IMG/VR virus record: IMGVR_UViG_3300035698_005042
Span: 1 to 39,801 of that record
Source of the DNA: a virus
Length of the DNA: 39,801 bases
Strand: one strand, 5' to 3'
Positions 128 through 39,801 of the stretch are shown here, one piece after another (the first letter of the stretch is position 1; each line of letters starts with the position of its first letter). Under the pieces are notes generated by a model. That model made no database searches. It was given only the letters and a program-made list of their open reading frames with translations, and was not told the origin of the DNA. The position numbers and the translations under genes were made by a program.

Positions 128-395
128 GTTGTCCCTGTCGCAATCCTTGATCATGTCTTTAAAAGCTCTTTCCCTTAATGCCCTTGCCTCATCATATGGA
201 CTACCCCCACACCTTCCAAGGTATGCTGCACTAATCGTTGAAGGGAGATCTTTGCAATATAAACTATGTTCTTCCGCTTTCCTTGCGTTCTCTTTTGCCT
301 CTATTTCTATCTTTTTCTTTCTTTTCTTCTTTCTTTTACTCTTGTTTATAAACTTATTTATAGTTGGTCAGTATCATCTTTGCATTATCAGTCAT
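107..395 (-). pseudogene. Small basic hypothetical protein, frame broken by one base
   Basis: The ATG at 395 has a perfect AAGGAG seven bases upstream and overlaps the end of the glycosyltransferase gene by eight bases. Its frame reads MTDNAKMILTNYK and stops at 354. A neighbouring frame is open from about 367 to the stop at 107 (about 85 codons, Lys/Arg-rich then a Cys-containing part ending NIKIDIS) and has no ATG, GTG or TTG until late. The 289-base span is one base longer than a multiple of three. I read it as one gene with a +1 frame change between 367 and 354: a real mutation, an assembly error or recoding. The function is unknown. The downstream gene (ATG at 84) follows closely with its own AGGAGGAG. 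Confidence 0.5.
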
Positions 396-1722
396 TAACA
401 AGCTCCTTCTTAATCTTAGCCCTTACCTTGCTATTCTTAGCAGCGCTCTTTTGCTCCTCATGCCTACGGTAGCACCACAATACTTCATCAATACTCTTGT
501 GAGCATATAGCTTATCGAACCTAGCAAAGAACTCTAGCCCTTCAAAGTGTTCTAGCCCATCACGATACTTAAGCTCGTTAACTACTGCCTTATTAAGCAA
601 GCAGCAAGCAGGGTGTTGTTCATCACCAGTACTAATATAATCTAGTCGCTCATTACCAACATTGTACTTACTGAATACAGCCGATGCATTACTTGAATCT
701 ATTTCCTTCACCATCTTTTCAACGCAATCAGGGTATAGAATATCATCCGCATCTAATCGCAGTATGTATCTACCCTTTGCTTCTTTAATTGCCCTATTGC
801 AAGTAGCAGGTAAACCAATGTTTTTTTCGTTTACAAATACTTTAATCTTCTTTTTAACCACATCGTTTTGCTTGGTAATAAACTGCATGGCTTTTTTAAT
901 CCCATCATCATCCGAGCAATCATCCCATATGTGAAGCTCTAGATCCTGGTACGTTTGATTGATAACAGAACTGATCGCATCGACAATATATTTAGAATAA
1001 TTATGATGTGTAATATAGACAGTAACGCGCGGTAACTTGTTTATATTCAACAAATACTTGTTTCTTTTAACGTAATTTATCATGTCTAAAGTACCATATC
1101 CGTGAGCTAGATTAGAGTCAACAATTCTAATTAGTGTAAGGTCTTCTGGGTAGTCTAAGGTTAACCTAAAATTACTTTGGTATGACATCTCAGGAAAGTA
1201 TTCCGCATATTTTATGCCTTCCTTTTTTAGTAAGTATGAGATAAACTCAATTGGTTTATTCCCTACTTGATCTATAATATCTTTAAGCACTGATGTTCTA
1301 ATTACTTCTGCTGCGATTCCTTCAGGGCACCTACTCATGTACACATAGTCTAAGTCATTGTTTAAGCACCACTGAGTTTGTTTCTTAAGTAATAGCTGGT
1401 CAATGAATATATCATCAGCAGTTACTCTAATCACATAATCCCAATTGTGTTTTTTTGCTACTGCGTAGAGTCTGTGTAGTGGTGATTCGTCCTCGCCTCT
1501 GTATATCTCTATTGGTATGTTGGTCTCTTTGATCTTACTTATGATCTTATCGTCTTTGCTTGCAGTTGGTATTGCTAGTACTGCTGGCCATCGTGAATAG
1601 TTGATTACGTGCTCAAGTAATATTTGAAGTGCAAATTTATTACCTATTCTTCTAAGTATCTTATTTGGTAGTCTTCTTGAATCCGTTCTTGCACAAATAC
1701 AAATTCCTATTTTTTTATCCAT
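388..1722 (-). CDS. SpsF-like cytidylyltransferase fused to GT2 glycosyltransferase
   Basis: A 444-residue two-domain protein. Residues 1 to about 225 look like the SpsF/CMP-sugar synthetase family: an N-terminal CARTDSRRLPNK signature for the nucleotide-binding loop, then RGEDES and RVTADD. This family activates acidic sugars with CTP. From about residue 233 (PRVTVYITHHNYSKYI) to the end it is a family-2 glycosyltransferase: INQTYQDLE, IWDDCSDDDG, NIGLPATCNRAI and the DxD-type metal motif LDADDILYPD. Joining donor synthesis and transfer in one chain suggests direct channelling of the sugar. It starts one base into the stop of a tiny upstream ORF (TAATG). There is no signal peptide or membrane segment, so it acts in the cytoplasm. 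It belongs to the sugar block with the radical SAM, SDR and DAHP-synthase-like genes. The target is unknown. Confidence 0.85.
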   Translation of the reverse strand: MDKKIGICICARTDSRRLPNKILRRIGNKFALQILLEHVINYSRWPAVLAIPTASKDDKIISKIKETNIPIEIYRGEDESPLHRLYAVAKKHNWDYVIRVTADDIFIDQLLLKKQTQWCLNNDLDYVYMSRCPEGIAAEVIRTSVLKDIIDQVGNKPIEFISYLLKKEGIKYAEYFPEMSYQSNFRLTLDYPEDLTLIRIVDSNLAHGYGTLDMINYVKRNKYLLNINKLPRVTVYITHHNYSKYIVDAISSVINQTYQDLELHIWDDCSDDDGIKKAMQFITKQNDVVKKKIKVFVNEKNIGLPATCNRAIKEAKGRYILRLDADDILYPDCVEKMVKEIDSSNASAVFSKYNVGNERLDYISTGDEQHPACCLLNKAVVNELKYRDGLEHFEGLEFFARFDKLYAHKSIDEVLWCYRRHEEQKSAAKNSKVRAKIKKELVND

Positions 1723-1949: not shown

Positions 1950-2981
1950 TCATTTCACCTTATACGATTGATAGCTTGTACATCGTGCACAGCTTGGCAG
2001 CTTCTCAAAATCATGCTGCCTAAGTCTATAAATTACATTGTGCCTATATACTGAGTTAATCATATTAACTATCTTTAGATTATTCACATTACCTAAGTAC
2101 AGAGTTGAGCATTCTTTATAAGCTAGGCAGCACATGAAAGTTTTACCATTAACTCCAATAACTATTCGATTAGATGGTTGTTTGCAGTACTGACGTTTGA
2201 TTCTTCCGTCTTTCCACAGTTCATAATATGCTAGTTGCGAGTCAGCATCGTTCCTACTCTCTACAATTCTAGGCTGAACTGGCTTGGAGTCAAACCTTCT
2301 TAGTTTCTTTTCTTTGAATAGCTTACTCATGACTAAATAAATATCAATATCACTATTTCTTTCGTTGTATGCTATTGCCTTATAGTATCTCTCTGCTATC
2401 TGATCATAAAGTGTTTTCTGGAATTTCTCATCGCTCTCGCATCCACCCTGCACTCTTCGCTGAATGTAAACCTTGGTTTGTTTAGGATCATATTTTTCTA
2501 CAAGCTCGGTTAGGTTATCTAGGAGTTTGCTAAGCTTAGCTGGAGTCCGCATTACTTCGTACATCTCTGGTTTCATGGTGTCTAATGATATGCGGATCTG
2601 AGTTAAATATTTAAGTGCTTCTGTTGAGATAGGCTTAGCAGTAAGATTAGTATTAATCATTATATCAAGGTAGCCAATATCAGATGCCATTTTACAGATC
2701 TTATCTAATTTAGGATGAACGGTAGGTTCACCACGCCAGTTAAACTTAACTGATCGTATACCAGCATTATAAGCTTCCTGCATAATACGTTTAGCTTCTG
2801 AAGGCATCATTAAGTCATCGATATATTTTTCTTTGAATCCGGGTTCTTGTCTATAGCAGAAAGGGCATTTGAGATTACACGCACGTATAATCTCTAAATC
2901 TAAGTGGACGGGTTGGTCTTGAAACCAGTGGGGCTTATTGAACTTTAGTCGGTAGAGTAAGTACTTAAGTTTTTTTAACAA
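1950..2981 (-). CDS. Radical SAM / SPASM domain enzyme
   Basis: A 343-residue protein with the radical SAM cluster motif CNLKCPFC (CX3CX2C) at residues 35-42, binding a 4Fe-4S cluster and S-adenosylmethionine for radical chemistry. The C-terminal part has the Cys pattern of a SPASM domain (YCKQPSN..., FMCCLAYKEC, ...CARC), which binds extra clusters. The start is TTG at 2981, with GAGGAG six bases upstream. It is the first gene after the 3110-3139 promoter and a long hairpin leader. Radical SAM/SPASM proteins act on peptides, sugars or other small molecules; the substrate cannot be read from the sequence. Its place before the sugar-activation and transfer genes suggests sugar or protein modification. 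Confidence 0.85.
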   Translation of the reverse strand: MLKKLKYLLYRLKFNKPHWFQDQPVHLDLEIIRACNLKCPFCYRQEPGFKEKYIDDLMMPSEAKRIMQEAYNAGIRSVKFNWRGEPTVHPKLDKICKMASDIGYLDIMINTNLTAKPISTEALKYLTQIRISLDTMKPEMYEVMRTPAKLSKLLDNLTELVEKYDPKQTKVYIQRRVQGGCESDEKFQKTLYDQIAERYYKAIAYNERNSDIDIYLVMSKLFKEKKLRRFDSKPVQPRIVESRNDADSQLAYYELWKDGRIKRQYCKQPSNRIVIGVNGKTFMCCLAYKECSTLYLGNVNNLKIVNMINSVYRHNVIYRLRQHDFEKLPSCARCTSYQSYKVK

Positions 2982-8974: not shown

Positions 8975-9438
8975 CCTTCTTTTCTTTTATTTTCTTCTAA
9001 TCCTGCTAGTATCTCTTGTATTTTATCTGACTCTGCTGCTGCGCCGCTTTGCTCTATCTCTGACTTCAGTGAGGTTATAAACTTGGTTCTCTCTTCCTTG
9101 GTATAGAACACCCAAGAGACTGGTATCTTTACTATAGTTCCGTCAATAGTCATTGAGTGGCATGGCCCCCATTTAGCTTTACACCATAGCTTAAAAAAAT
9201 CCTCTGTGCTGCCTTCAGGTGCGCTGTGGCAAGCGGTTTTATAGTACTCCGAAAGAAGCAAATGCGCTAGTTTGTTTTGCTGTGCTGTACCGTACTCAAT
9301 GCATTTAGTAACTGTGCATCTAACTACACCGGAATTTTTCTTTGCTAACTTTGCTAGTTTGATGTTGTTGCAATGTGGGAAGCGTATGTAGTAGGTGCCT
9401 CTCTCGTCCTTATGCAGGTTAGCGTTGTCGTCAATCAT
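8971..9438 (-). CDS. Hypothetical protein, possibly NinB-like recombination protein
   Basis: A 155-residue protein. Its middle and end (TAQQNKLAHLLLSEYY..., KLWCKAKWGPC, VSWVFYTKEERTKFITSLKSEIEQSG) resemble the general layout of phage NinB/Orf-type proteins, which help load recombinases onto single-stranded DNA. The match is only a feel for the pattern and no diagnostic motif is certain. It overlaps the methyltransferase gene by four bases (ATGA). AGGAGG lies upstream of the ATG. Confidence 0.4.
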   Translation of the reverse strand: MIDDNANLHKDERGTYYIRFPHCNNIKLAKLAKKNSGVVRCTVTKCIEYGTAQQNKLAHLLLSEYYKTACHSAPEGSTEDFFKLWCKAKWGPCHSMTIDGTIVKIPVSWVFYTKEERTKFITSLKSEIEQSGAAAESDKIQEILAGLEENKRKEG

Positions 9439-10112
9439 AGTGGTAGCACCTCCTGCTCTAGTCTTCGAGCTGCTATCTCACAATACTTTTCTTCTAGCTC
9501 AATACCTATTGCTTTGCGTTGTAAGTTTTTGGCTGCTCGCAGAGTAGTGCCGGAACCCATATATAAATCAAGTATCAAATCATCTTTTCCACTATACTTT
9601 TCAATAATTATATTCATTAAAGCTAATGGCTTTTGTGTCGGGTGCATTCTTTTTTTTATGTCTTGTTTTTCCATTCCAAATATTCCTGCGAACTTAACCC
9701 TCAAAATATCTCTTTTATGCGTAGTTTTACTCCATATCATTTCAAAACAAGAACCATACATTTTATCAGCCGAATCTGTTAGTCTTTTATCCCAAACTAA
9801 CCAACTGCCACCTTTAGGTAATTTGTCGGCGTAATAATCACCACCAAACCAAAATTGTTCTTTAGCGTCTATTTTATTCAATATTTTTCTAGGATCGAAT
9901 TCCTTGTCATCTCCAATAACTTTATTATAGTCACAACCACCAGTTTTTCCTTTAAACATTTTGCTTTTCATTGACCCAAAATTAGTATTTAATTTCATGC
10001 CATAAGGCGGATCAGTAAGCACCAGATCAACTTTCGGCAACTCTGGTAATATTTCTAAGCAGTCACAATTATATATAGTGCAATGATTATCTTGATAGTA
10101 TGGTTTTATCAT
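9435..10112 (-). CDS. DNA methyltransferase, N6-adenine/N4-cytosine type
   Basis: A 225-residue enzyme. The catalytic motif DPPYG (in VLTDPPYGMKL, about residue 35) comes before the AdoMet-binding motif (LDLYMGSGTTLRAA, about residue 185), the beta-class order. HPTQKPLALM just before is also typical of this family. It methylates DNA at a short site, probably to protect the phage from restriction; no partner nuclease is next to it. The ATG follows the upstream stop directly (TAAATG) with GGAAGGG as ribosome site. Confidence 0.88.
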   Translation of the reverse strand: MIKPYYQDNHCTIYNCDCLEILPELPKVDLVLTDPPYGMKLNTNFGSMKSKMFKGKTGGCDYNKVIGDDKEFDPRKILNKIDAKEQFWFGGDYYADKLPKGGSWLVWDKRLTDSADKMYGSCFEMIWSKTTHKRDILRVKFAGIFGMEKQDIKKRMHPTQKPLALMNIIIEKYSGKDDLILDLYMGSGTTLRAAKNLQRKAIGIELEEKYCEIAARRLEQEVLPL

Positions 10113-10322
10113 TTACCCTTCCTGCATCACATAGTTAAAATATTGTTTTCCTTCAACTCTTGCGCTAACAATATTATGACCCTCTCGTCTTAGGTCAGTT
10201 ATTCTTCTGCGGTAGTCGACGATATAAATCTTGCCAATGATTTTAGCAAAGGTCACGCCTTTCGAACCTGCTTCTTTTAACATCGCGAGTATTCTGCTTT
10301 TTTGATTATTTCGATTTTTCAT
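10113..10322 (-). CDS. Winged-helix / helix-turn-helix small protein
   Basis: A 69-residue basic protein: KSRILAMLKEAGSKGVTFAKI...RRRITDLRREGHNIVSARVEGKQYFNYV. This is the compact winged-helix fold seen in many phage small regulators and replication accessories. Its ATG overlaps the stop of the frame-restored YopX gene (TAATG), with AAGGAGG inside the YopX end. Likely DNA-binding. Confidence 0.65.
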   Translation of the reverse strand: MKNRNNQKSRILAMLKEAGSKGVTFAKIIGKIYIVDYRRRITDLRREGHNIVSARVEGKQYFNYVMQEG

Positions 10323-10734
10323 TACGCCGCCTCCTTGGGGTCTAGTAGTTCCGGGTTGTCGTGAATGTTACCGATGACTTCAGGCAGCCCTTCTGCAAAA
10401 ATAGATTTTTTTCTCCGTATAACCTTTCATATAATGGAGCGGTTGGGCCAATTTGTTTTTCTATAAACATTCCGTTTCCATAACCAACAACCATAAGCAC
10501 AACACCAGTAACACTTATTATATCCCCCTCGAATATCTTCTTTTTGTTCTTATCCTTTAGCCCAGTGTATTGGCCAACGGTTTGGGGGCATACGTCCGAA
10601 CAGCAAGTTATATATTTTGCGTCATCGTTTATATATGTCCATTCAATTCGGCACCCTGCTCTTGTAGAAAGATCTCCATAACACCACTCTTTATTGTCAT
10701 ATCGTTTTGCCCTAAACATTATTGATCTTATCAT
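10322..10734 (-). CDS. YopX family protein, C-terminus in the -1 frame
   Basis: The zero frame starts MIRSIMFRAKRYDNKEWCYGDL, contains VGQYTGLKDKNKKKIFEGDI (classic YopX), and ends at 10342 with an unrelated tail. In the -1 frame the expected YopX ending EVIGNIHDNPELL appears and runs to TAA at 10322, which overlaps the next ATG (TAATG). The frames meet at A7 (10412-10406), read A AAA AAT in the zero frame. One extra A, or -1 slippage, gives a 137-residue protein. YopX proteins are common in phages; their role is unknown. Confidence 0.75.
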
Positions 10735-10747
10735 GTTCTACCTCCAT

Positions 10748-11089
10748 TTAATTTATATATCCTATCCATATTTTAGGCTCCTTCACACGGTCAGCAAACC
10801 AAAAGAACTGACAGGTAAATGGATCTAGACCAGTGTGTTTTATTGCTTGGTGAAACTTAGTAAAGTCGGCTTTGGAAGGTTTGCGCTTGGTATGTTTTAC
10901 TTGGATATAGTAGGTTGCGATTATTTTATTAACTAGGTCTGGTTTCAATGCTATTACATCACCGAGCCCAAATAGATCTGTATTACCTCTGGTATGTGGC
11001 CATGCCTCGGCATGTGTAAATCCGTTCCCTAGGAGCCACGCAATGGCCTTTCTATGCCCACGGCCCCCCTTTGCTCTACAGTTAATCAT
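10748..11089 (-). CDS. PD-(D/E)XK nuclease-like protein (Hjc/VRR-NUC-like)
   Basis: A 113-residue protein with an N-terminal GGRGHRKAIAWLLGNGF helix, then GDVIALKPD and YYIQVKHTKRKP. This gives the D...QxK core of small restriction-like nucleases and Holliday-junction resolvases; the usual Glu is Gln. Family members resolve branched DNA in phage replication and packaging. It is joined to an upstream small gene by ATGA. Activity is uncertain because of the Gln. Confidence 0.6.
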   Translation of the reverse strand: MINCRAKGGRGHRKAIAWLLGNGFTHAEAWPHTRGNTDLFGLGDVIALKPDLVNKIIATYYIQVKHTKRKPSKADFTKFHQAIKHTGLDPFTCQFFWFADRVKEPKIWIGYIN

Positions 11090-15484: not shown

Positions 15485-16087
15485 CTATTTACAACCCCAC
15501 TTTAATTGATCAAAGCTAGTATTTACTATACATCCATCATGTAGATCTTGTGGAACTAAAAACTCTGGATCTACTCCAGGAAGAGATACCTTTTTAATCT
15601 TCTTATAACACATCGAACATGTAGAAGAGCATACATAAAGATCAGCATTATTAGGAACAGTTTTGATTATATGTTTGAGGAACTCTAAATAGTCGTATGG
15701 TTTACCAACTAACCCATATGCACGCTTCTTAATTATAGAGAACTCCCTAGGGGTTAGGTCATTAGGTGAGAAAACAATCATCTGCATATCGCTGCGAAGG
15801 TTTTTGTCTAGGCTATCGATAATAACACCTTTACCCTGCGCTTCCACTATCTCATGCAGCAAACCCTTTTCACCAGAAGACTTACCGAAATACAATCCGG
15901 CATGTTCAAATGGTGAGCTAGTCGCTCCTTGTATTGCTTTGGCTAACAAGCTGTTAGAGCTGGTTAAAAAAATAGATCCTGGTTGTATCTCGCGTAAGAA
16001 TTTTGCCTTATCAGTTTTCTTGTACGTTAGTCTTTTTCGCTTGAATCCTAACATGGCGAGTATTGCACCAAATAACTTTTTAAACAT
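15485..16087 (-). CDS. YiiX/NlpC-P60-like cysteine hydrolase
   Basis: A 200-residue protein. After a hydrophobic/basic N-terminus (MFKKLFGAILAMLGFKRKR) it has QPGSIFLTSS, then SPFEHAGLYFG with the catalytic His, HEIVEAQGKGV, and YVCSSTC with the probable catalytic Cys. This His-before-Cys order is that of the permuted YiiX/YebB branch of NlpC/P60. The family cuts amide bonds in peptidoglycan or lipids. Located beside the holin-like gene, it is probably a lysis or virion wall-cutting enzyme. AAGGAGG is upstream. Confidence 0.65.
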   Translation of the reverse strand: MFKKLFGAILAMLGFKRKRLTYKKTDKAKFLREIQPGSIFLTSSNSLLAKAIQGATSSPFEHAGLYFGKSSGEKGLLHEIVEAQGKGVIIDSLDKNLRSDMQMIVFSPNDLTPREFSIIKKRAYGLVGKPYDYLEFLKHIIKTVPNNADLYVCSSTCSMCYKKIKKVSLPGVDPEFLVPQDLHDGCIVNTSFDQLKWGCK

Positions 16088-16096
16088 GGCGCCTCC

Positions 16097-16408
16097 TTAA
16101 AATAGTTTATCTGTAAATTTAATAACTAATTCGCTGCCAACCATAATGAGTATTAACTTCCACCAAAGTGAATCCACCCACTTCTTCATGTCCATGGCAA
16201 TTTTATTAGAGCGCTCGGTACTCTCCGCGCTGTCTGTGGCCATTCTCACGCTTACCTCCATTTTCTCCCTCAGTTTAGGGAATTCATGATCGCGAATAAC
16301 CTTGTTATAGGTTTCCAAACTCTCTACCTTTGAATCATATCTAGCTTTATAATCGTTGAATTTCACGCACAGGATTCTCCCGTATTCACAACCATCTGAT
16401 CCCGACAT
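16097..16408 (-). CDS. XhlA-like / holin-associated membrane protein
   Basis: A 103-residue protein: a long helical, coiled-coil-prone segment (residues 20-75, ...VESLETYNKVIRDHEF...) followed by one C-terminal membrane span (WWKLILIMVGSELVIKF). This layout matches haemolysin XhlA-type proteins that act with holins. It starts at the last base of the tail gene and lies next to the hydrolase gene, making a lysis cassette. Confidence 0.55.
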   Translation of the reverse strand: MSGSDGCEYGRILCVKFNDYKARYDSKVESLETYNKVIRDHEFPKLREKMEVSVRMATDSAESTERSNKIAMDMKKWVDSLWWKLILIMVGSELVIKFTDKLF

Positions 16409-19056
16409 TATACTTCCCTTAAGGTGAATTTGCTGTCTAACTTTTCTAGATTGTGCTGTGTCTTAATCACCTTGAATTCTTGATTGTTAATACTAATTTG
16501 CCGGGCCGAATAAGGGTCCCCTTTCTGCGATACAACAATGTTATCTATAGTCCAGCCACCTAGATATCCGTTCATGGCGATCGATCCGGCAGTAAACAAA
16601 TAAGCAGTGTTGGTATGAGTACCAATAAAAACTCCATCAATCCATAGAGATACTTCAATTCCCTCTAGTCCTATTTTTACAGAAGAGACCGTGTTGGGGG
16701 CAAATGCATCCCAATTTTTTATTACTCCAGCACCAGTTGGGATTGTTGCTGATGATCTTAGTAATCTCAATTCTGAACCCGGAATATGTTGGATATAATA
16801 CTGCCTTGTGCCATCATGCCTGAATCCAAATAACCATCTACCGCCAGGATGAGATATAACATCAAAATCAATTATATAATCTGTCCATGATCCCGCTGAT
16901 CCAGCAACATCATATACAAATGTGCCTGGCCAATTTCCAGAAATAATCCGCATTTGTCCATGGTTAGAACTAGCCCCTGCTGTCGCATTAAATCTTCCAA
17001 CCTCAGTTGAATATGGGTACCATGTCCATCCATGGGCAGTCATGCTATCCCCGTCAGCTAACGCATCAAAATTTTCGGAATATAATGATATAGAAGGCGT
17101 GGTAGAAAATATAATAGGAGTGTTATAGGTTAATCTAACTGTATCAGCCACATTTATATATGGATACAGTTTAGTAGTAATGTTAACTTCTTTTTTCGGT
17201 TCATCTAAATTATCTTGCCAATAGTTAGCGATAACCTGAGCCAGAGAATCATTAATGATATTATTATTAGAAATATCCAATCTTCTTACACCATATATAT
17301 CCGCACTGCTTCCCGCTCCTACGACAGGGCTAGAAAAAGCAGTGACGCTATTATTCAGATACTGAATATTTATATCATTGTATACTTTCTTTATCTCATC
17401 CTTGATTTGGAAGCTAACAATATCATCTTGATTTATTAGTAATTTTTCTTTATACGCATAGGAATCTTCCTCATCTCTAGTAGAATAATCAACTCTAGCA
17501 TAATTATAAACTTTGAGATTATCCATAGCGATTTTATTAGTAGCTCCCCCGGATATATATGACCTGGCTACTTGAAGATGATCCACATTCCCGCCAGTAA
17601 TAAGTATTTTGCCACTGACGCCTTCGCCTATTTTAGCATAACTATTACGCATACTCTCCCATAGCGTTCCTGCTGTCTCTGATCCTACAATGCTAATAGA
17701 ACCACCATCTGCTGCGTGATAAATTCTGAATATATCTCTGCTTCCCTCTATCCCATCGCTGTCATGCACAAAGGAAAAGAAATGGACGCTATTTGCACTA
17801 AAATCTAATGTAGTGGTATTCGCAACAGCATTTATATAAGTATTATCCAGTGAATTATATTTACTGATCCCTAGGGTCATTACGCCAGCGGTATTTGGTC
17901 CCCAAGTCCCCCAACCTATTTTTAATTTATCGTTTCCTGTCGTATATAGATTCCCCATTTGTGACTCAAAAGCATATACTTTATCAGGAGCAATACCTCC
18001 ATCGGTAGTATCAAAAAACGGCTTAGTCCAAAACTCTACGGTGAATTTATTATAATTTATTCCGCTACTGTTGCTCATGGCAATAACCGCATTAGTTGCT
18101 GTTACATACATGCCCTTATTGAATTTAACATCTATATAGGCTGAATCACCTGTCGCAAACTGCTTGAACTCTCTACCACCAGACAAAGGCAGGCCAGAGG
18201 TAGCGGTATCATATAATGTAGTTAACGTTAAAGCTGTCGTTGGAGCAGAGTCAAATCTAGCATGTAAAGCTAGGTCAGTAGGAATAGAGGTAGTGAACTT
18301 TTCCGCGTAAAACTCATCTATATCAAACGGGGTTAGAACTACCTTTCCCTGTCTACTAATAAAAAACCTTCCGCCATCAGCTTCCGCTATACCTTGAAAG
18401 AAAGTCCATAGGGATTGTTCACCTAGGATATTGCTGGATAGATTAGAGTTAAAACTATTGTTTCCTGGGTTCCCTCTCCAGTTGTCATGTTCTATATACC
18501 GTTTAAATACATCATTGCCACTTCCATCCGTAGCATCTCTTACTGCAGTTAATAACGTCCACGAGCTTTGAAAACCAGTGTCTGGAATCCAATCCTTTGC
18601 TTTCTCTTCTTTGAATAAATCATCTAATGGGTTAATTGACATACGAACCAGGGGGTATTCATTACTATAATTTTCTGTGATGTACCCTATAAAAACTGTG
18701 GGGACGGAAGGAAAGGAACCGCCATCTTCATCCAAATACTCTACTTCTATTTTAACCATGGTTTTATAGATTGAATAATAGGAATAGAAAAACGAGGCTT
18801 GATCTGTTATATCATTAAAGTATCCGTCTTTGTTATCCAGGACCAGGCTAGTTCTAGCATTAGAGGTTTTGTTATTCAAAACATCACTTGCATTTTGCCC
18901 TATATTGCCTATCTTAACAATCTTGTCATTAGAGATTAATTGCCAATCAGTTTCATAGGCAGTGGGCGTGCGTCTCTTGAAAAAAAGCTTACGATTAACT
19001 TTAAGATTATTATTATTAAAGATAGTCTGTAAACTATTAAAATCCTCTGCGCTCAT
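16408..19056 (-). CDS. Large tail-tip protein with LamG-like domain
   Basis: An 882-residue virion protein. Residues 1-150 look like a tail baseplate/hub part (NRKLFFKRRTPTAYETDWQL..., TVFIGYITENY). Residues about 265-515 form a concanavalin/LamG-type beta-sandwich (LHARFDSAPTT..., FTVEFWTKPFFDT...), and another carbohydrate-binding-like stretch lies near 650-840 (WTWYPYSTEVGRF..., GWTIDNIVVSQKG). It probably contacts the cell surface. It overlaps the next upstream tail gene by four bases (ATGA). Confidence 0.7.
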   Translation of the reverse strand: MSAEDFNSLQTIFNNNNLKVNRKLFFKRRTPTAYETDWQLISNDKIVKIGNIGQNASDVLNNKTSNARTSLVLDNKDGYFNDITDQASFFYSYYSIYKTMVKIEVEYLDEDGGSFPSVPTVFIGYITENYSNEYPLVRMSINPLDDLFKEEKAKDWIPDTGFQSSWTLLTAVRDATDGSGNDVFKRYIEHDNWRGNPGNNSFNSNLSSNILGEQSLWTFFQGIAEADGGRFFISRQGKVVLTPFDIDEFYAEKFTTSIPTDLALHARFDSAPTTALTLTTLYDTATSGLPLSGGREFKQFATGDSAYIDVKFNKGMYVTATNAVIAMSNSSGINYNKFTVEFWTKPFFDTTDGGIAPDKVYAFESQMGNLYTTGNDKLKIGWGTWGPNTAGVMTLGISKYNSLDNTYINAVANTTTLDFSANSVHFFSFVHDSDGIEGSRDIFRIYHAADGGSISIVGSETAGTLWESMRNSYAKIGEGVSGKILITGGNVDHLQVARSYISGGATNKIAMDNLKVYNYARVDYSTRDEEDSYAYKEKLLINQDDIVSFQIKDEIKKVYNDINIQYLNNSVTAFSSPVVGAGSSADIYGVRRLDISNNNIINDSLAQVIANYWQDNLDEPKKEVNITTKLYPYINVADTVRLTYNTPIIFSTTPSISLYSENFDALADGDSMTAHGWTWYPYSTEVGRFNATAGASSNHGQMRIISGNWPGTFVYDVAGSAGSWTDYIIDFDVISHPGGRWLFGFRHDGTRQYYIQHIPGSELRLLRSSATIPTGAGVIKNWDAFAPNTVSSVKIGLEGIEVSLWIDGVFIGTHTNTAYLFTAGSIAMNGYLGGWTIDNIVVSQKGDPYSARQISINNQEFKVIKTQHNLEKLDSKFTLREV

Positions 19057-22544: not shown

Positions 22545-23567
22545 CTAGTATGCTGCAGTTGCATTCGTAACCTTAATATTAGCTACATCAGCCCCTATTG
22601 AAGAAGCGATGCAATCAATCTCGATCTCTTGTAATAGAATACCCTGATCACTTACTTTAGGTGTTTGAGTTTTATAATAACCTTCTGGGATTTCTATTGA
22701 CATTGCATAGGTAGTGCTTCCTGCTCCTGCACCAATAGTTTGCCCAGATCCCATCAACACACCAAAACCATAAGCAGTTTCAGCATGTGAACGAGCATAC
22801 GCAGTTGTAGTATCAAAACGCTGAGTAAACTTGAAAGTGGTTTCCCGTCTTCCATATTTAATCATATCCACAGTAATTGTACCCAATGCGCGAGCGTTAT
22901 CTTCTGCAAGTAAATTATTGTTTTCTGTATATTCGAAACTCTGAATATATTCAGTTGCACCAGAAGCTAATACTGAAGTCATAGATGCTGATTCACCCGT
23001 CTTGAAATTAACTCCATCCCAAAGCATAGGCGTAACTGCTGGTAATATAACTGTCACAGTATCCGTAGAAGTAGATCCTGTACGGCCAATAAACTCCGCC
23101 GAGAACAGGCAGGGACCATTAAGCTCCCCTTTTACGCTCCAGGAATTTACTCTGCAACCCATGAAATCAAAAATAGTAGTATCGCCTACACGCTTCTGGA
23201 TAGTTAAAGAACTTTCGGGAGTCTCTAGCTCTCCCTCTGCAAAACTATGGATGTAACCAAGGGAAGCATCACCGCTAGCGGTTGCCGTTCCAGCTCTAGC
23301 CACTTTAATAATCTTAGCTATTGCATCAGAAGCGACATTTAAGTACGCCTCTACTCCGCCAGCTACTACTTCATCCCCGAGAATACGCCTAGTTCTATTT
23401 CTAGATGTATTTATCTCATCTAATATAATGCTCTCTCTAGTACGGTCTAATCCTTCTGTTTGGAACTCCATGAAGGAAGAAGCTGTCTTCTTGGTACTCC
23501 ATGTGCTTTCTTCTCCAACACCAAACCAACTTTTATAACCTAGTTGTCCGCCATCACCGACTGCCAT
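22545..23567 (-). CDS. Major tail (tube) protein
   Basis: A 340-residue protein (MAVGDGGQLGYKSWFGVGEE...) of the phage tail-tube type: EESTWSTKKTASSFMEF start, central beta domain with DFMGCRVNSWSVKGEL, and a conserved-type end (GYYKTQTPKVSDQGILLQEIEIDC). Size and the place before the chaperones fit. AAAGGAGG gives strong translation. If the DUF115 protein glycosylates the virion, this Ser/Thr-rich protein is the first suspect. Confidence 0.8.
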   Translation of the reverse strand: MAVGDGGQLGYKSWFGVGEESTWSTKKTASSFMEFQTEGLDRTRESIILDEINTSRNRTRRILGDEVVAGGVEAYLNVASDAIAKIIKVARAGTATASGDASLGYIHSFAEGELETPESSLTIQKRVGDTTIFDFMGCRVNSWSVKGELNGPCLFSAEFIGRTGSTSTDTVTVILPAVTPMLWDGVNFKTGESASMTSVLASGATEYIQSFEYTENNNLLAEDNARALGTITVDMIKYGRRETTFKFTQRFDTTTAYARSHAETAYGFGVLMGSGQTIGAGAGSTTYAMSIEIPEGYYKTQTPKVSDQGILLQEIEIDCIASSIGADVANIKVTNATAAY

Positions 23568-23799
23568 TTGGAACCTCCTTTTCTATCTCTGCTTGTTTAA
23601 GCCTAAAAATAGGCTTGCCTCCCTTTTTGGGGTTACCATTTGTCATTTTAAGTAAGAACCTTTTCTCAGCATCGCTTACGGTTATTTCGTCTCCTGGCTT
23701 ATTTATATCCTTGTTCCCTGCTCTATAATGATGCAATTCCATCACGCGCATAGGCATAGTGTGCTGATATATCAACGTATGCTTATTGCCTACACCCAT
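23554..23799 (-). CDS. Hypothetical protein between major tail and DUF115 genes
   Basis: An 81-residue basic protein (MGVGNKHTLIYQHTMPMRVM...) overlapping the DUF115 gene by ten bases and the major tail gene by 14. Only a weak ribosome site, so translation may depend on coupling to the DUF115 gene. Function unknown. Confidence 0.55.
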   Translation of the reverse strand: MGVGNKHTLIYQHTMPMRVMELHHYRAGNKDINKPGDEITVSDAEKRFLLKMTNGNPKKGGKPIFRLKQAEIEKEVPNGSR

Positions 23800-24818
23800 G
23801 ATATTTCTTCTTTCTTATCGCAATAATCTATTTGAATATTAACAACTTCCTTGCTATTTAAGATCTCTTTAAGCATAGCCTCGCTAGCATTCCGAGAATT
23901 AAATATTAAGCGTTTAGCCCTCGCTACTTTTTTCTTTGTTAGTATCTCTGCCGTAATAGGCTTTTTAACAAACTTAGACACTCGCTTATTTAAATCATGG
24001 TTAGGTATCTGCAAGAATCCTCTATCCGAACAATTGAAAAGACGTATCCCGTTTGCTCTTAAAGGACCATCATAATAGTCTTGCAACCATCTGCAGGAGA
24101 ACAGTAAGTTAGGCGATGTATAAGCAATGTTCCCTGATATATCAAATCCAGAATGACCTTTCATCCAATAGCGTTTCTCGCTATCGTTAAAAGCATAGTA
24201 GTTCTGTTCTGGCTCCCATCCAAAATCATATCCAACTAAAAGATATTCTGAATAACCTAGCATCTGTGTAGAAAATACTACGGAAGTATTCCCCACATTA
24301 GAAGACGCTGGGAGAATATCGCTACACCCAGAGATTTCCATAAATATCTTTTCGCTTTGTATAGTGTCCTTATTTACATAAAAATAAACTGGCCCTTGCC
24401 AATTAGTTGCCCATTCTGGATTAGCACAAATGCTCGAGACTAAAGTAACATCCTGAGTTTTGTGTATTACTGGCTGTATCCATTCAGCATACTTAATATT
24501 AGCGTCTGCTAATATAACCCACTTAACTTTAATATCATGCTCTACTAAAATTTTGAACGCCTTATCACAGCATGCAATATCTACATCATCTCTATCATTA
24601 TACTTTTTAAGTAGCTCTATTTTATCTTCTAAACTTTTTCCCATTCCTACAACTACTACGCATTTACCAAATCCTTCTAGATACAAGTCTTTTAATGAAT
24701 TACCATTTTTCTTGTAAATATCACCATTGAGTTTAGCGTGATTCTTCCATTTCTCGCCAGATTGAGCGAACGCCGTTAATGATTGCTTTCTTACATCCTG
24801 TTCGTTTAGTTGTTGCAT
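23790..24818 (-). CDS. DUF115 / Maf-like glycosyltransferase-family protein
   Basis: A 342-residue protein. VVVVGMGKSLEDKIELLKKY is the GxGxSL start of the DUF115 domain. It continues with DIACCDKAFKILVEHDIKVK and WVILAD, then ILPASSNVGNTSVVFSTQML and YLLVGYDFGW. Relatives include Maf proteins, which transfer CMP-activated pseudaminic or legionaminic acid to flagellin, and MptE-like enzymes. Set among tail genes, next to the major tail protein, it may glycosylate a virion protein. Its ATG (24818) lies in a perfect palindrome. Confidence 0.8.
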   Translation of the reverse strand: MQQLNEQDVRKQSLTAFAQSGEKWKNHAKLNGDIYKKNGNSLKDLYLEGFGKCVVVVGMGKSLEDKIELLKKYNDRDDVDIACCDKAFKILVEHDIKVKWVILADANIKYAEWIQPVIHKTQDVTLVSSICANPEWATNWQGPVYFYVNKDTIQSEKIFMEISGCSDILPASSNVGNTSVVFSTQMLGYSEYLLVGYDFGWEPEQNYYAFNDSEKRYWMKGHSGFDISGNIAYTSPNLLFSCRWLQDYYDGPLRANGIRLFNCSDRGFLQIPNHDLNKRVSKFVKKPITAEILTKKKVARAKRLIFNSRNASEAMLKEILNSKEVVNIQIDYCDKKEEISWV

Positions 24819-35035: not shown

Positions 35036-35201
35036 GCTTACCATCTCCTTTGCACCACGGGCATTTTATTTTTCTTTTAATCTCTTTGAATACAAGTTCG
35101 CGCGGGTTCTTTTTAGTTCCCCACTGCAATCCATTAAATTTCCTATCTATATAATATCCCCTTCCATCACAGAGTAAGCAGGTCTTCCCCCTTATCGGCA
35201 A
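35001..35201 (-). CDS. DnaJ-type zinc-finger small protein
   Basis: 66 residues from a TTG start at 35201. CLLCDGRGYYI and CPWCKGDGKH form a pair of CxxCxGxG repeats, the zinc motif of DnaJ. It lacks a J domain. It overlaps the methyltransferase gene by ten bases and has a poor ribosome site, so translation is presumably coupled. Confidence 0.6.
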   Translation of the reverse strand: MPIRGKTCLLCDGRGYYIDRKFNGLQWGTKKNPRELVFKEIKRKIKCPWCKGDGKHVLNKGKKGID

Positions 35202-36505
35202 TGCAGCCAGCCTAGATGCTCTACAACATCTACGATAGCTGCTGGGTTAATTGATAGCATTCTCTCGGCACAGTAATTAGCTTTCTGAGGGTCTTTATAA
35301 TACTGCACTGCTAATTCAAACAGTACCTTCCATACTTCCATGTTCCCAGGGTCTACTTCAGAGGCTTGCAAATAGATCTGCTCTGCTTGACGTACGCTAT
35401 TAGATAGTTGACGATCAGCACCATTCTTAGGCTCTCCCCATTGCTTGAATATACCAGCGAAATGGATCTTGAGCCTATGGTTATCACCGATAACACTTAG
35501 CGCTCTCTTGAACAGCTCTCTCACCTTGTTAACATCTTGATAGTAGGACTTCTGCACAGATAGAATGAGGTAAGGGTCTAGATACTTAGGATATATAGCT
35601 AGTGCAGTCTCGCATGCTTCCTCTACTGGTGGCAGTCCGTTCTCCATTGATTTATTAACGCTGCTTAACACGTCCATGGCTTTCTTCTGCGTTTGTAGTG
35701 TCTTCTCTATCTGAACTACATCACCTTTAACTATATCATCTGAAGGCTCACGCTTCTTATTCAGTGTAGCATAGCCATACACCTTATCATCACTCTTGAT
35801 AGTCTCAAATCCAACCGCTTTAAACAAGTTATTAACTGATTGCTGTGAGAATACATTGTGATGATTTAAGTGGTACAATTCTTCAAACTCAATACATGGA
35901 TTGCCAGATACTTCTCTTAATACATCTAAATAATCAGGTACTGCTACATACAAATGGCCATCATCCTTAAGCACTCGCTTAACTTCTATAAGAGTAGCGC
36001 GTGCATCTGTTACATGCTCAAGAGTGTGGTACATTATAACTAGATCCTGGCTCTTATCAGGTAGCTCTTTAACCTCATCGATTATATTAACCTTATAGCA
36101 AGTACGCGCATAGTTAGCTAGTGCGGATGAGTACTCTGTCCCTGTAACATTAGCTTTGGGGAATATCTCTCTTGTCATTCCAAACGCACATCCTATATCT
36201 AATACATTGACGCCTTCTTTATCGAATATGCCCAGCTCGTTAAGCATCTTACGATGGAAATGATTCTTCTTTCTACCTTTGCACGTCATCTGATATGTTA
36301 CTCGTGCACGCTGACCATTATAACTTGTTTTAAGCTGCTCCTCGGTCCATCTAGGAGTATAGGTTACGAAACCACAACCCTTACATATCTTAAAGCCAAT
36401 CTGTTCATTAAAGATAGTGTTGTTATCAAACCAGTATTGCTTATTTCTTAGATAGTCTAGCGAGTGCCAATCCTCAGTGTTACATATTACGCAATTGTTA
36501 TTCAT
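35192..36505 (-). CDS. Zinc-ribbon SAM methyltransferase with TPR tail
   Basis: A 437-residue protein. CVICN (residues 5-8) and CKGCGFV (41-44) make an N-terminal zinc ribbon, as in sugar C-methyltransferases. Then VLDIGCAFG binds SAM, LVIMYHTLEHVTD is the class I motif IV region, and VLKDDGHLYVAVP follows. Residues about 300-430 look like TPR helices (ALAIYPKYLDPYLILSVQ..., YLQASEVDPGNMEVWKVL). Members methylate deoxysugars or other small metabolites. It joins the sugar block to the terminase genes; ATGA links to the gene before. Confidence 0.75.
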   Translation of the reverse strand: MNNNCVICNTEDWHSLDYLRNKQYWFDNNTIFNEQIGFKICKGCGFVTYTPRWTEEQLKTSYNGQRARVTYQMTCKGRKKNHFHRKMLNELGIFDKEGVNVLDIGCAFGMTREIFPKANVTGTEYSSALANYARTCYKVNIIDEVKELPDKSQDLVIMYHTLEHVTDARATLIEVKRVLKDDGHLYVAVPDYLDVLREVSGNPCIEFEELYHLNHHNVFSQQSVNNLFKAVGFETIKSDDKVYGYATLNKKREPSDDIVKGDVVQIEKTLQTQKKAMDVLSSVNKSMENGLPPVEEACETALAIYPKYLDPYLILSVQKSYYQDVNKVRELFKRALSVIGDNHRLKIHFAGIFKQWGEPKNGADRQLSNSVRQAEQIYLQASEVDPGNMEVWKVLFELAVQYYKDPQKANYCAERMLSINPAAIVDVVEHLGWLHCR

Positions 36506-36657
36506 TTGTTCTCCTTTGATTTTTCTTTTCGCAAAGCTTCTAGATATGCAGCGCTAGCCGCTACTTGAACAGCTATTAAAATAGGTGATGGTAATTTAAA
36601 TATCTTATCTAAAACTTCATAATATTGTTTAGCAATGCTTTTGTATTTTTCGCTCAT
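36502..36657 (-). CDS. Small hypothetical protein (51 aa)
   Basis: ATG 36657 with AAGGAG upstream, ATGA overlaps at both ends. MSEKYKSIAKQYYEVLDKIF, then a mildly hydrophobic stretch, and a basic end. The double coupling between the DAHP-synthase-like and methyltransferase genes makes it real. Confidence 0.65.
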   Translation of the reverse strand: MSEKYKSIAKQYYEVLDKIFKLPSPILIAVQVAASAAYLEALRKEKSKENK

Positions 36658-37418
36658 GCATTCTCCTTAATATAATCGTATATTAATTGGAACTCTTCTA
36701 TATTCAGTATCTGCCTTTTATCAGTCTGGCTAAGAGAGGGGTCATCCATTACCTCAAGCATGAAGTTCTTCACACCTATTGCAACCGCTGCCTTAACCAT
36801 TGGGAAAATATCCTCATACTGTCCGCACGCATGGGAGGGATCAAAGCATAGTTCAATATCAGGGCGCTCCTGTATAATCCTAAGCATCCCCTGAAAGTCA
36901 GGCATCCAACGCCTATTATCAGTCCTGCAAAATGTGTTAATGCCTCTCTCAACTATAACTGGTTTGTATCCGTGCCGCTTCTCGCATATATCGTGTATAC
37001 CTATTATCTCATCTACTGTCATGCCAGGATGGCGTTTGATAAGTACTTCCTCGGCATCGCTATTATCTAGATACCAGTTAGCCTGACACAGCAATTCATA
37101 ATTCTGCGCAGATCTTGCCGCTATCCAAATGAAATTAGTGCATTTGTCTATCGCATCTGGATGATCTGCTAATTGGTTGCTATCTCTTATTTCAATCCCT
37201 GTTTTTAATTTATAAGTATCTTTAACATTATTAATTACATGAAATCCTTTATTCCCTATCCCCTCAACATACTTCTCAGGGGTAGTCCCGCCTCCCCATG
37301 TCTTGCACCTAAAGCGAATGTCTTTGTCTATATACGATAAGCGTTCAGCAGTCTTATAGCAGTTTTCAATCTCTTCAGGTCGATTATTCAATAGGCAAGG
37401 GCCACAATAAAGCTTCAT
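36654..37418 (-). CDS. DAHP-synthase-like (AroF-Ib/KDO8P-synthase family) enzyme
   Basis: Start at ATG 37418 (AGGAGA upstream), not 37541. 254 residues: YCGPC at 4-8, GGGTTPEKYVEGIG (like the substrate loop T-P-x-x-[FY]-x-G-[IL]-G), FIWIAARSAQNYELL, VLIKRHPG, VIVERGINTF and CFDPSHACG, the metal and phosphate motifs of type I DAHP synthases. The family condenses phosphoenolpyruvate with a sugar phosphate to give 3-deoxy-ulosonic acids. In this cluster it may make the acid that the SpsF domain activates; alternatively it is a bona fide aromatic-pathway enzyme. Confidence 0.75.
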   Translation of the reverse strand: MKLYCGPCLLNNRPEEIENCYKTAERLSYIDKDIRFRCKTWGGGTTPEKYVEGIGNKGFHVINNVKDTYKLKTGIEIRDSNQLADHPDAIDKCTNFIWIAARSAQNYELLCQANWYLDNSDAEEVLIKRHPGMTVDEIIGIHDICEKRHGYKPVIVERGINTFCRTDNRRWMPDFQGMLRIIQERPDIELCFDPSHACGQYEDIFPMVKAAVAIGVKNFMLEVMDDPSLSQTDKRQILNIEEFQLIYDYIKENA

Positions 37419-37534
37419 TAGAAGTCTCCTGTTATCGCTGTTTTTATCATGAAAATCATTAATACTATTACTTGTAACATAATTACAGCAACCGACCAAA
37501 ACATGACCATCTCCATTACCTCTTTGCTTATCAT
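37418..37534 (-). CDS. Tiny membrane peptide (38 aa)
   Basis: ATG 37534 shares ATGA with the upstream gene and its TAA overlaps the next ATG (TAATG). MISKEVMEMVMFWSVAVIML, then mostly hydrophobic residues to about 30. The double coupling supports translation. One-pass membrane microprotein, unknown role. Confidence 0.6.
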   Translation of the reverse strand: MISKEVMEMVMFWSVAVIMLQVIVLMIFMIKTAITGDF

Positions 37535-37812
37535 ACGTCATACGTCCTTTTAAGTTTAGTATTGAAGTTAGTGATCAGCTTCTTTAGTTCCTTATGCTGG
37601 CTATATCCTCTAGCGTGCAGCTCTTTGAGTATCTTAGTTCGCTTTCGTTCAAGGTCAGTATATAAATACTCAGGGTGCTTCTTGCCTATCTCATCACCAT
37701 GGTTCCTGAGCCACTGGCTGAGGTACTTGTACAAATTAACTAGAGCTACATCACTGAACGTAGGTAATTGTATTGTTAGTGACATTACAGATATTTGAAT
37801 TAAGTTTTGCAT
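37531..37812 (-). CDS. Hypothetical helical protein
   Basis: 93 residues (or 84 from a second ATG at 37785). Mixed charged helices (YLSQWLRNHGDEIGKKHPEY...ERKRTKILKELHARGYS). No family recognised. Its stop is in ATGA with the tiny membrane peptide. Confidence 0.55.
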   Translation of the reverse strand: MQNLIQISVMSLTIQLPTFSDVALVNLYKYLSQWLRNHGDEIGKKHPEYLYTDLERKRTKILKELHARGYSQHKELKKLITNFNTKLKRTYDV

Positions 37813-38006
37813 TCGCTATTCCAGTCCTCTATTAGTTTCTGCTTGGTATCCTTAAACGTTTTAAGTAGTTTCCGTGTTCTCATCTTAGAGCATCTAGAAC
37901 AATAGATATACAGCTCAGCTACATCCACTTGTTTAGCATTAGTATACTTGGTGATAAGCTTAAGTTTCGTATTACCACAGTCTTGACATGCTCTAGCTCG
38001 TTCCAT
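37800..38006 (-). CDS. Zinc-ribbon protein, possibly Ogr-like
   Basis: A 68-residue protein with CQDCGNTK and YCSRCSKMRTRKLLKTF, two CxxC pairs. The layout resembles small phage activators (Ogr/Delta) or other zinc ribbons. GGAG is upstream and the start overlaps the SDR stop (TAATG). Confidence 0.55.
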   Translation of the reverse strand: MERARACQDCGNTKLKLITKYTNAKQVDVAELYIYCSRCSKMRTRKLLKTFKDTKQKLIEDWNSECKT

Positions 38007-38965
38007 TACAAATCTCCATTGCCCTCATGCATTTCTTGCTCTGCAGCACGGGATGCTTGATTTTGTTCGTCCTCTAGCTTCTTAACTTCTATTGCTGCTT
38101 CTACGCATCTTTCCATACCTGTTAAATAGCTGGTAGAAATAGCCCATCCTAAAATTACTCCCGCTCTATATCCTAGTAAATTTTGGTTCTTTATCTGACC
38201 TTCTCTTTCAACTGTATTAGTTGTCTTGATTGGCCTATCAACAAACCGTTTAACTGTAGCCATTGTATCGTTTACAGTCCACCCAGATTTTCCTATGATG
38301 TTAATTATCGGTAATGGATTGCCTTTTAGTTCTTCAATAGGATAGGTTTTCTTACAGGCTAAATATATCGCCTCGGCTACGTCCTCTACATACACATACT
38401 GCCTACTTTGTTTACCATCTCCATGAATCAAAATCGTTTCTCCACGCAAAGCCTTGTTAATTGCTACAGCATTAAATAGACTGTCTCTCATACCCGGACC
38501 ATAGAACGTGCCTAACCTAAGTATGCATCCCTCAATCTTGCCTACGCAACCCAGCACCTTCTCTCCTGCTAGTTTAGACCAAGCATAAGTTTCAGTAGGA
38601 ATAGGCATGTCATCCTCATCTATTCGTTCGCGAGTTGATTGATTACCGTACGCGCAGCAGGTAGAGATGTAGATGATTGGTATATCTAGGATTGAGCAGA
38701 TTCTACCAATGAAATAAGTTCCCTGCACATTGATAGAAAAGTTCTTGTCTATGTTCTTCTCCGAGTCGTATAGATCCGCTACTGCTGCTGCGTGCACGAC
38801 AACATCCGGCTTTTCAGAAGCACATACTGTGTAAAACTGATCTCTATCTAAAATGTCATTGCCATTAGATACATCATAGTTAATGAATTGATCGCCAGCC
38901 TTCTCTACTTGCGCCTTTATGTATTGACCAAGGAAGCCTGAACCACCTGTGCAAAGTATTTTCAT
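38006..38965 (-). CDS. SDR sugar epimerase/dehydratase
   Basis: 319 residues from ATG 38965, chosen because ATGA couples it to the preceding small gene. TGGSGFLG (6-13) binds NAD(P). The active site is S101-T102 (ISTCCAYG) plus Y127 and K131 (YAWSK). This is an extended SDR acting on a nucleotide sugar; the exact reaction cannot be set. It fits a sugar biosynthesis block. Confidence 0.8.
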   Translation of the reverse strand: MKILCTGGSGFLGQYIKAQVEKAGDQFINYDVSNGNDILDRDQFYTVCASEKPDVVVHAAAVADLYDSEKNIDKNFSINVQGTYFIGRICSILDIPIIYISTCCAYGNQSTRERIDEDDMPIPTETYAWSKLAGEKVLGCVGKIEGCILRLGTFYGPGMRDSLFNAVAINKALRGETILIHGDGKQSRQYVYVEDVAEAIYLACKKTYPIEELKGNPLPIINIIGKSGWTVNDTMATVKRFVDRPIKTTNTVEREGQIKNQNLLGYRAGVILGWAISTSYLTGMERCVEAAIEVKKLEDEQNQASRAAEQEMHEGNGDL

Positions 38966-39075
38966 ACCACGGTGCGCCAATCATCGCACATGATGTCTGT
39001 TTGACTTGCCAACCATGGACACCGCGTTCCATTTTTACATGTGTTCTTGCTAGCTTTCCAATCTTCTTTCTTCAT
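38962..39075 (-). CDS. Small Cys-containing protein (37 aa)
   Basis: ATG 39075 has GGGAGAAG upstream and its TGA overlaps the SDR ATG (ATGA). MKKEDWKASKNTCKNGTRCP, then WLASQTDIMCDDWRTVV: three Cys. Function unknown, but the coupling fixes the SDR start. Confidence 0.6.
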   Translation of the reverse strand: MKKEDWKASKNTCKNGTRCPWLASQTDIMCDDWRTVV

Positions 39076-39345: not shown

Positions 39346-39758
39346 TCTAGTTCAAACTTCCCCTCTATTTGTTTTATTGAGTTCTTCGGTATATATATAT
39401 TCGCATCTATAGCATTCTTTCTTAACGCATCTAGCTTTGAATCATACCGCCGTACGTGGTACTTGAACTCTACTCTAGGGTTGATATTGTCAAAATATAT
39501 AGTACATAAAGAATGTGGTTTTTTAATACTATTGATTCCACCATCTTCTTTTTTTATATAAAAATAATAAGAGTTTCTATTACCAATATAACCCGAGCCT
39601 AAGAAAAGCGATCCCTGTATTTCTTTGCCACTATTCAAATTAACTAAGGAATACGAGCTTTCTATTTCCGGACCAGTAGCGATATAACTTACACGGCTAA
39701 TTACGATAAGCATTAGTATGATAGGAATTAATACCAGAAACTTTTCGACTTTACTCAT
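39342..39758 (-). CDS. Membrane-anchored hypothetical protein
   Basis: 138 residues: one N-terminal membrane segment (about residues 7-24), then a domain outside with GKEIQGSLFLGSGYIGNRNS and YYFYIKKEDGG, a beta-type pattern I have seen as a conserved phage hypothetical. AGGAGGAG is upstream. Could be an envelope protein acting in host takeover or superinfection exclusion; unproven. The first 28 codons repeat at 1-84. Confidence 0.65.
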   Translation of the reverse strand: MSKVEKFLVLIPIILMLIVISRVSYIATGPEIESSYSLVNLNSGKEIQGSLFLGSGYIGNRNSYYFYIKKEDGGINSIKKPHSLCTIYFDNINPRVEFKYHVRRYDSKLDALRKNAIDANIYIPKNSIKQIEGKFELE

Positions 39759-39801
39759 TTATCAATCTCCTCCTGCTATATCACGATATATCAATCTTGA
39801 T
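39675..39801. repeat. 127-bp terminal direct repeat (right copy)
   Basis: Identical to bases 1-127; see the left copy. It contains the first 28 codons of the 39342-39758 gene and the last bases of the 107-395 gene. Confidence 0.95.

Follow-up and report, generated by a model that had tools for sequence, protein, structure and literature searches.

Why should a phage carry, inside its tail operon, a gene resembling those that decorate flagellin with sugars? This question is raised by a viral genome in IMG/VR (record IMGVR_UViG_3300035698_005042), whose whole analyzed stretch of 39,801 nucleotides is hereafter called the window. The earlier note on it, made from the sequence alone, had claimed that a Maf/DUF115-like gene lies one small gene from the tail-tube gene, that the tube product is Ser/Thr-rich, and that the phage may make an ulosonic-acid sugar and attach it to its own tail, a pathway regarded as new. 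The first two claims held: the gene belongs to PF01973, the gene order is as described, and Ser and Thr make up 20.3% of the tube protein. The third is supported, with attachment to the tail remaining an inference and no glycan having been seen.

The gene in question (23790..24818, (-); 342 aa, ATG start) encodes a putative Maf/MptE-like CMP-ulosonate protein glycosyltransferase. Its product matches Pfam PF01973 (MptE-like), the family earlier named DUF115/MAF_flag10, with 74.8 bits against a cut-off of 34.6 (E 9e-21), and the sole NCBIfam match is the PseD flagellin-modification domain (7e-8). Between this gene and the tube gene lies a small gene of 81 aa, named sm81 (23554..23799, (-)), which overlaps both neighbors, the three ORFs being joined by end-to-end overlaps. 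It is restricted to the window's subclade, whose members have it at the equivalent position, in gaps of ~170-275 bp. ORF 23790-24818 is thus a genuine PF01973 protein encoded one small gene from the tail tube. In an alignment of 35 sequences of the Maf-like family, 28 columns are invariant, including D85, K86, D105, N149, D151, N174, D198, and K215. These conserved polar residues resemble an active site, a resemblance that, like catalysis itself, is inferred from sequence alone. In the same alignment, no column shows a histidine that is invariant or even 90% conserved. It is known that the GT42 sialyltransferase CstII has a conserved catalytic histidine base (His188); therefore, a CstII-like His base is not conserved in this family. 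The dN/dS ratio of the Maf-like gene was 0.05 in two close pairs of relatives and 0.28 in a third pair, values within the range of the capsid and tube genes, and the gene is under purifying selection.

An AlphaFold2 model of the Maf-like protein, built with 34 relatives as the alignment, reached a pLDDT of 92.8 and a pTM of 0.89. Its best match in the whole PDB is the Maf flagellin glycosyltransferase of Magnetospirillum magneticum (5mu5; Foldseek E 1.6e-10; Z 23.0, rmsd 3.1 over 247 residues, model residues 14-300), to which it aligns only over chain residues 238-528. The next match is the archaeal MptE/HPPK of M. jannaschii (8sd5, Z 16.9), followed at lower scores by SteA (Z ~11) and the CMP-sialic-acid transferases ST8SiaIII, CstII, and Cst-I (Z ~9-10). 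A profile search also placed Maf (4.6e-5) above MptE (0.07). Comparison with Maf structures had been proposed as a check before this analysis; it was run, Maf tops the PDB, and the outcome that would have refuted the idea, a fold unlike Maf/MptE, is absent. Among database entries, its nearest relatives are "MptE-like" proteins from uncultured viruses (A0A0F7L3H2 and A0A6J5PG89).

One alternative is that the PF01973 protein is no transferase here, being instead a diphosphokinase of pterins/nucleotides or a tail-assembly chaperone without catalytic activity. In its favor are the Pfam name MptE-like, the position of MptE as the second-best structure, and the lack of a conserved CstII-type His; in addition, tail-assembly chaperones are generally encoded near tube genes. 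However, Maf outscores MptE by both structure and profile, the many invariant polar residues favor an active site, the scanned genes included none recognized as a pterin gene, and a CMP-sugar synthetase and an ulosonate synthase constantly co-occur with the gene. We consider this alternative very unlikely and prefer to read the protein as a Maf-type glycosyltransferase.

The proposed acceptor is the major tail tube protein (22545..23567, (-)), which matches PF18906 (Phage_tube_2, 3e-19). Its AlphaFold2 model (pLDDT 81.7) matches the P74-26 tail tube (8ed0, Z 29.8), the major tail protein of SH-Ab15497 (28.7), and T5 pb6 (~20-24), and it is therefore a pb6-like, double-domain tube protein. Ser plus Thr averages 20.9% in the tubes of relatives, compared with ~10-12% in most other proteins and 16.4% in the capsid protein, which makes the tube the most Ser/Thr-rich of the families compared. 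However, it should be held against the main reading that beta-rich virion proteins are commonly high in Ser/Thr. Phage tail tubes carrying glycans have been described in mycobacteriophages, in which capsid and tube are both glycosylated (Freeman et al. 2023, cited in PMC12619734 and PMC11256854).

We then considered how widely the gene pair occurs. A search of IMG/VR with the window's Maf-like protein alone found no relatives. A distant relative was reached through the major capsid protein (41% capsid identity; GC 52% versus 38%), and it contains an MptE-like gene directly before the tube gene as well as five genes of the sugar cassette described below (24-36% identity; the SDR is partial at the record end). 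An alignment of the two MptE-like proteins, from the window and this relative, found 47 loci in IMG/VR, and in 47 of the 47 records reaching that far (window included), the Maf-like gene immediately precedes that of the tube in the same orientation. The gap between the two is mostly ~-15 to +30 bp, or else sm81 lies between them in the window's subclade. Among the contigs found through the CTP/GT2 fusion of the cassette, PF01973 is encoded in 25 of the 34 new records, and none of the 22 records of ≥29 kb with a full-length fusion lacks it; in each of these 25, the gene is directly upstream of the tube. Contigs were also found through the tube, using the subset alignment A12 because the full tube alignment A8 was too diverse for scanning; the Maf-like gene is upstream of the tube in all 60 with enough upstream sequence and is missing from none, and 33 of the 60 are new compared with the other scans. 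The gene pair is present in 6/6 capsid-found contigs of sufficient reach, including one absent from the MptE scan, and in three contigs placed in bacterial MAG bins.

In total, ~109 uncultured viral contigs, some of them near-identical, have the Maf-like gene before the tube gene, without a counterexample. The survey of other phages for DUF115 genes beside tube genes, which had been suggested in the earlier note, was thus performed on these contigs, and the pair was kept throughout them. The possibility of a single odd gene was rejected, as the linkage recurs in three independent scans (fusion, tube, and capsid); therefore, it is not an artefact of searching with the Maf-like gene. However, the conserved neighbors come from one phage clade, and adjacency and co-occurrence may partly reflect common descent. 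In tblastn searches of 50,697 sequenced phage records, no relative of the Maf-like protein was detected (E up to 1e-3 with the window query and up to 10 with that of a relative), nor any relative of the window tube, and no good match for the Maf-like family was found in PHROGs. A host search by genome scan yielded three contigs binned with unrelated bacteria (Phycisphaerae, Gastranaerophilales, and Pricia), and host assignment failed; these may be stray phage contigs.

Several other features of the window and its relatives were observed. The tail-tip-type protein of the window (16408-19056, (-)) has 882 aa versus ~370-500 aa in its orthologues, and the extra middle part has, by eye only, a LamG/concanavalin-type carbohydrate-binding look. 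In one relative (G036, L081-L083; oriented 9549-10970), the gene before the Maf-like gene encodes 473 aa versus ~167 aa and has an extra domain. The window also contains an N6/N4 DNA methyltransferase gene (9435-10112, (-); PF01555) and, after the tail genes, a permuted papain-like amidase (15485-16087, (-); Peptidase_C92, YiiX type), a possible lysis or cell-wall enzyme.

Candidate genes for making the sugar lie near both ends of the window. The window has a 127-bp direct terminal repeat (1-127 and 39675-39801), and several relatives also have terminal repeats of 110-127 bp. Since the repeat size is near the assembly k-mer length, it is probably a sign of a closed or permuted genome and not a biological repeat. 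In a relative (L009, end of IMGVR_UViG_3300043395_003292, with L007 60-632), the SDR match is split, with one piece lying at each end of the record, in support of circular closure. The window genome being closed, the sugar genes at its two ends therefore form one cassette. The first gene encodes a radical SAM/SPASM enzyme (1950..2981, (-); PF04055 9e-14, SPASM 1e-7), whose CxxxCxxC and SPASM cysteines are invariant in 18 sequences, and nearly all loci have this gene directly before the CTP/GT2 gene. The latter (388..1722, (-)) encodes a CMP-sugar synthetase (CTP_transf_3, SpsF/KdsB-like; PF02348 1.5e-14) fused to a GT2 glycosyltransferase (PF00535 8.5e-27). In 15 sequences of the fusion, S15, R17, and K21 of the CTP domain are invariant and R12 and P19 nearly so, and the R-x-x-S-x-R-x-P-x-K motif is met; D190 and D194 and the GT2 aspartates (D267 D268, D324 D326 D327) are also invariant. 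An NAD-dependent sugar epimerase/dehydratase-type SDR (38006..38980, (-); PF01370 9e-37) is also found in the cassette of close relatives, and a small conserved gene of the window's subclade (37531..37812, (-); family c25 in G000, G007, and G014) overlaps the gene of a DAHP-type ulosonate synthase (36654..37541, (-); PF00793 2.4e-19). The last gene encodes a SAM methyltransferase with a C-terminal TPR-like part (35192..36505, (-); PF13489 3e-16).

Further examination of the DAHP-type synthase revealed that C49, H237, E263, and D274 are invariant in 11 phage sequences (alignment A11). The metal ligands of type I DAHP/KDO8P synthases (AroG) are known to be Cys, His, Glu, and Asp, a criterion met by the phage enzyme. 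The CTP/GT2 fusion, radical SAM, and methyltransferase genes, the last as an orthologue, are all present in 13 of the 13 long genomes compared, and the usual cassette order is radical SAM, CTP/GT2, small gene or SDR, synthase, and methyltransferase. The synthase, the SpsF-like/GT2 fusion, the SDR, and the methyltransferase, all listed before this analysis, are real; the radical SAM/SPASM gene and the terminal repeat had been missed. Two additional genes were observed in relatives. A UDP-glucose/GDP-mannose dehydrogenase-type gene (L007 1075-1923 and equivalents) occurs in 8 of 13 genomes, often near the SDR, and may feed the pathway. A small conserved gene (~113-142 aa; L008 4334-4708, L076 4656-5027) directly follows the CTP/GT2 fusion in 9 of 13 genomes and gave no match in a Pfam search.

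It is worth noting that the synthase is exchanged within this clade. Phages without the DAHP-type gene have a NeuB-type gene (PF03102), nearly always in the equivalent slot. PF03102 was above the cut-off in all five proteins of relatives tested (E 3e-59 to 6e-5), and the SAF domain gave no match in five NeuB-type proteins scanned (225-293 aa), a short or diverged form not being ruled out. PF00793 or PF03102 is present in 34/34 records found through the fusion, a count that leaves out weak NeuB matches overlapping DAHP-type genes. In 48 untruncated loci, the slot holds a DAHP-type gene (31 loci), a NeuB-type gene (13), or both (2), so that a synthase follows the fusion in 46 of them, and NeuB is elsewhere nearby in 2. 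In the tree of the Maf-like protein, well-supported branches require the synthase type to have changed at least five times, a count that rests on a quick tree. It has been known that 3-deoxy-2-ulosonic acids arise from the condensation of PEP with a sugar, the reaction of DAHP/KDO8P synthases as well as of NeuB. As both types make such acids from PEP, the conserved element is therefore the class of product. It is thus very likely, albeit by inference, that the cassette makes a CMP-activated (non)ulosonic acid.

A referee may argue that the DAHP-type gene serves the shikimate pathway as an auxiliary gene and has nothing to do with the Maf-like protein. Indeed, NCBIfam places DAHP synthase models first, and the best PDB matches are DAHP synthases. 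However, NeuB fills the equivalent slot between the CMP-synthetase fusion and the methyltransferase in other phages, and no other shikimate gene was seen. This is the least plausible of the alternatives considered and is very unlikely; we retain the reading as an ulosonate synthase of the sugar cassette.

Two other explanations accept the sugar and dispute its destination. The first is that the sugar from the CMP-ulosonate pathway is placed on a different virion protein (capsid or tail fibre/tip), and that the gene sits next to the tube gene merely because the late operon is a convenient site. Most of the clade has the cassette directly after the genes for the tail tip and fibre, Ser and Thr are also fairly abundant in the capsid protein, and mycobacteriophages glycosylate both capsid and tube (PMC12619734). 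However, the Maf-like gene never adjoins fibre or capsid genes and is always directly before the tube, often overlapping or nearly touching it, which makes this explanation unlikely. The second is that the infecting phage uses the cassette to alter the LPS or capsule of the host envelope, e.g., to hide receptors, with the Maf-like protein acting as a cytoplasmic ulosonate transferase on a surface glycan. Phage enzymes modifying nonulosonic acids of host capsules are known (PMC12053666, PMC6586298), and for a protein of the E. coli K15 capsule, whose predicted fold resembles Maf/CstII, a function as KDO transferase has been predicted (PMC7387560). However, the Maf-like gene is invariantly linked to the tail tube and not to other sugar genes, and within the shared part of the cassette, no flippase, polymerase, or membrane-anchored transferase was recognized. 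Genes for surface modification are mostly accessory and variable, but the Maf-like gene is core. We regard this explanation as unlikely as well.

We therefore return to the main reading, that these phages make a CMP-ulosonic acid, which the Maf-like enzyme attaches to a virion protein, most likely the tube. We favor it, albeit by a modest margin, as catalysis, donor, and acceptor are all inferred. In this scheme, a PEP-condensing synthase (DAHP-type here, NeuB-type in relatives) would produce a 3-deoxy-ulosonic acid from a sugar substrate; the SDR, radical SAM enzyme, and methyltransferase would prepare or modify the sugar, in an order that is inferred; and the synthetase half of the fusion would activate the acid as a CMP-sugar. 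The Maf-like protein, in the cytoplasm, would then transfer it to hydroxyls of newly made tube protein, the product of the next or next-but-one gene, before or during tail assembly, as Maf does on flagellin. The GT2 half of the fusion may extend or cap the glycan. The homologies, predicted fold, gene order, constant co-occurrence, exchange between two synthases, and purifying selection are shown. Tube adjacency in ~109 contigs, the constant cassette, and the alternation of DAHP and NeuB together support a phage ulosonic-acid pathway tied to tail assembly. CMP-ulosonate is the likely donor by inference; a virion protein is also a likely acceptor, inferred with less confidence than the donor. 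The tube in particular, being the next gene's product and the most Ser/Thr-rich family compared, is by analogy with Maf the likeliest acceptor, an inference from gene position that we hold to be only slightly better supported than its negation. The biological benefit, like the order of steps, is inferred.

With regard to novelty, glycosylation of the tail tube as such has been found before, in mycobacteriophages; what is new is the family of the enzyme, the class of sugar, and the clade of phages. No paper treating DUF115 or MptE-like proteins in phage tails was found by title or abstract in the literature searched. If the main reading is true, flagellin-type glycosylation with sialic-acid-like sugars has a viral tail counterpart, as a core function rather than an occasional accessory, and a role can be assigned to the "MptE-like" proteins of uncultured phages. 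Phage tail glycans would become testable by mass spectrometry, and small Maf-like enzymes would be on offer for protein glycoengineering. A further question would be what acidic sugars do for a long non-contractile tail, with stability, shielding, adhesion, and the evasion of defence as candidates. A bolder reading, which we would not yet back, is that tail glycosylation is essential, and has a system dedicated to it, in a widespread clade of uncultured siphophages, with a Maf-type transferase fixed beside the tube, the whole tube decorated with phage-made CMP-activated ulosonic acids, and the chemistry repeatedly switched by DAHP/NeuB exchange under pressure from host or environment.

Compared with known systems, the phage protein has the superfamily fold of MptE (archaeal 6-hydroxymethylpterin diphosphokinase, 8sd5), but this is a weaker match than Maf and the phage gene lacks a pterin pathway context. 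The catalytic-His criterion of GT42 CstII is not met, although the Maf central domain resembles CstII (PMC11339370). A0A0F7L3H2 and A0A6J5PG89 are close structural relatives (TM 0.72-0.86, 26% identity); they are named from the domain alone, and their entries state no role, gene context, or pathway. In mycobacteriophages (Che8 and relatives), a phage-encoded system is proposed or shown to glycosylate the capsid or tail-tube protein, as proposed here, but those phages are unrelated, and the accounts in PMC11256854 and PMC12619734 include neither a Maf-like gene beside the tube nor a NeuB/DAHP-type synthase cassette. The bacterial NulO (NeuB/PseI with NeuA/PseF/SpsF) and KDO (KdsA/KdsB) pathways have, like the phages, a PEP-condensing synthase and a CMP-sugar synthetase. 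In contrast, the phage cassette is short, its synthetase is fused to GT2, a radical SAM enzyme and a methyltransferase are added, the synthase type is exchangeable, and the phage NeuB proteins have only ~200-290 aa.

The nearest system is that of the Maf flagellin glycosyltransferases (5mu5, C. botulinum CbMaf, and Campylobacter Maf/PseD), which have the PF01973 domain in common with the phage protein. The phage protein is shorter (342 aa versus 632 in the 5mu5 structure), with only the central and part of the C-terminal region matched; it lacks the N-terminal degenerate Rossmann domain of Maf and does not meet the three-domain architecture (~600 aa or more). Its gene sits in a tail operon beside the tail tube and not in a flagellar locus, and its activity is unproven. 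C. botulinum Maf accepts CMP-Neu5Ac and CMP-KDO and transfers Neu5Ac and KDO to Ser/Thr, with mass shifts of +291 and +220, respectively (PMC11339370), and flagellin is modified by Maf before chaperone binding and export (PMC4065374). Maf-type glycosylation is thus already known in flagella; in phages, the pathway is well supported and the acceptor is open, gene linkage being shown and activity not. As in the phage cassette, companion genes in Maf systems make and CMP-activate ulosonic acids, and the Maf gene adjoins that of a Ser/Thr-rich, self-assembling tube protein, flagellin, just as the phage gene adjoins the tail tube.
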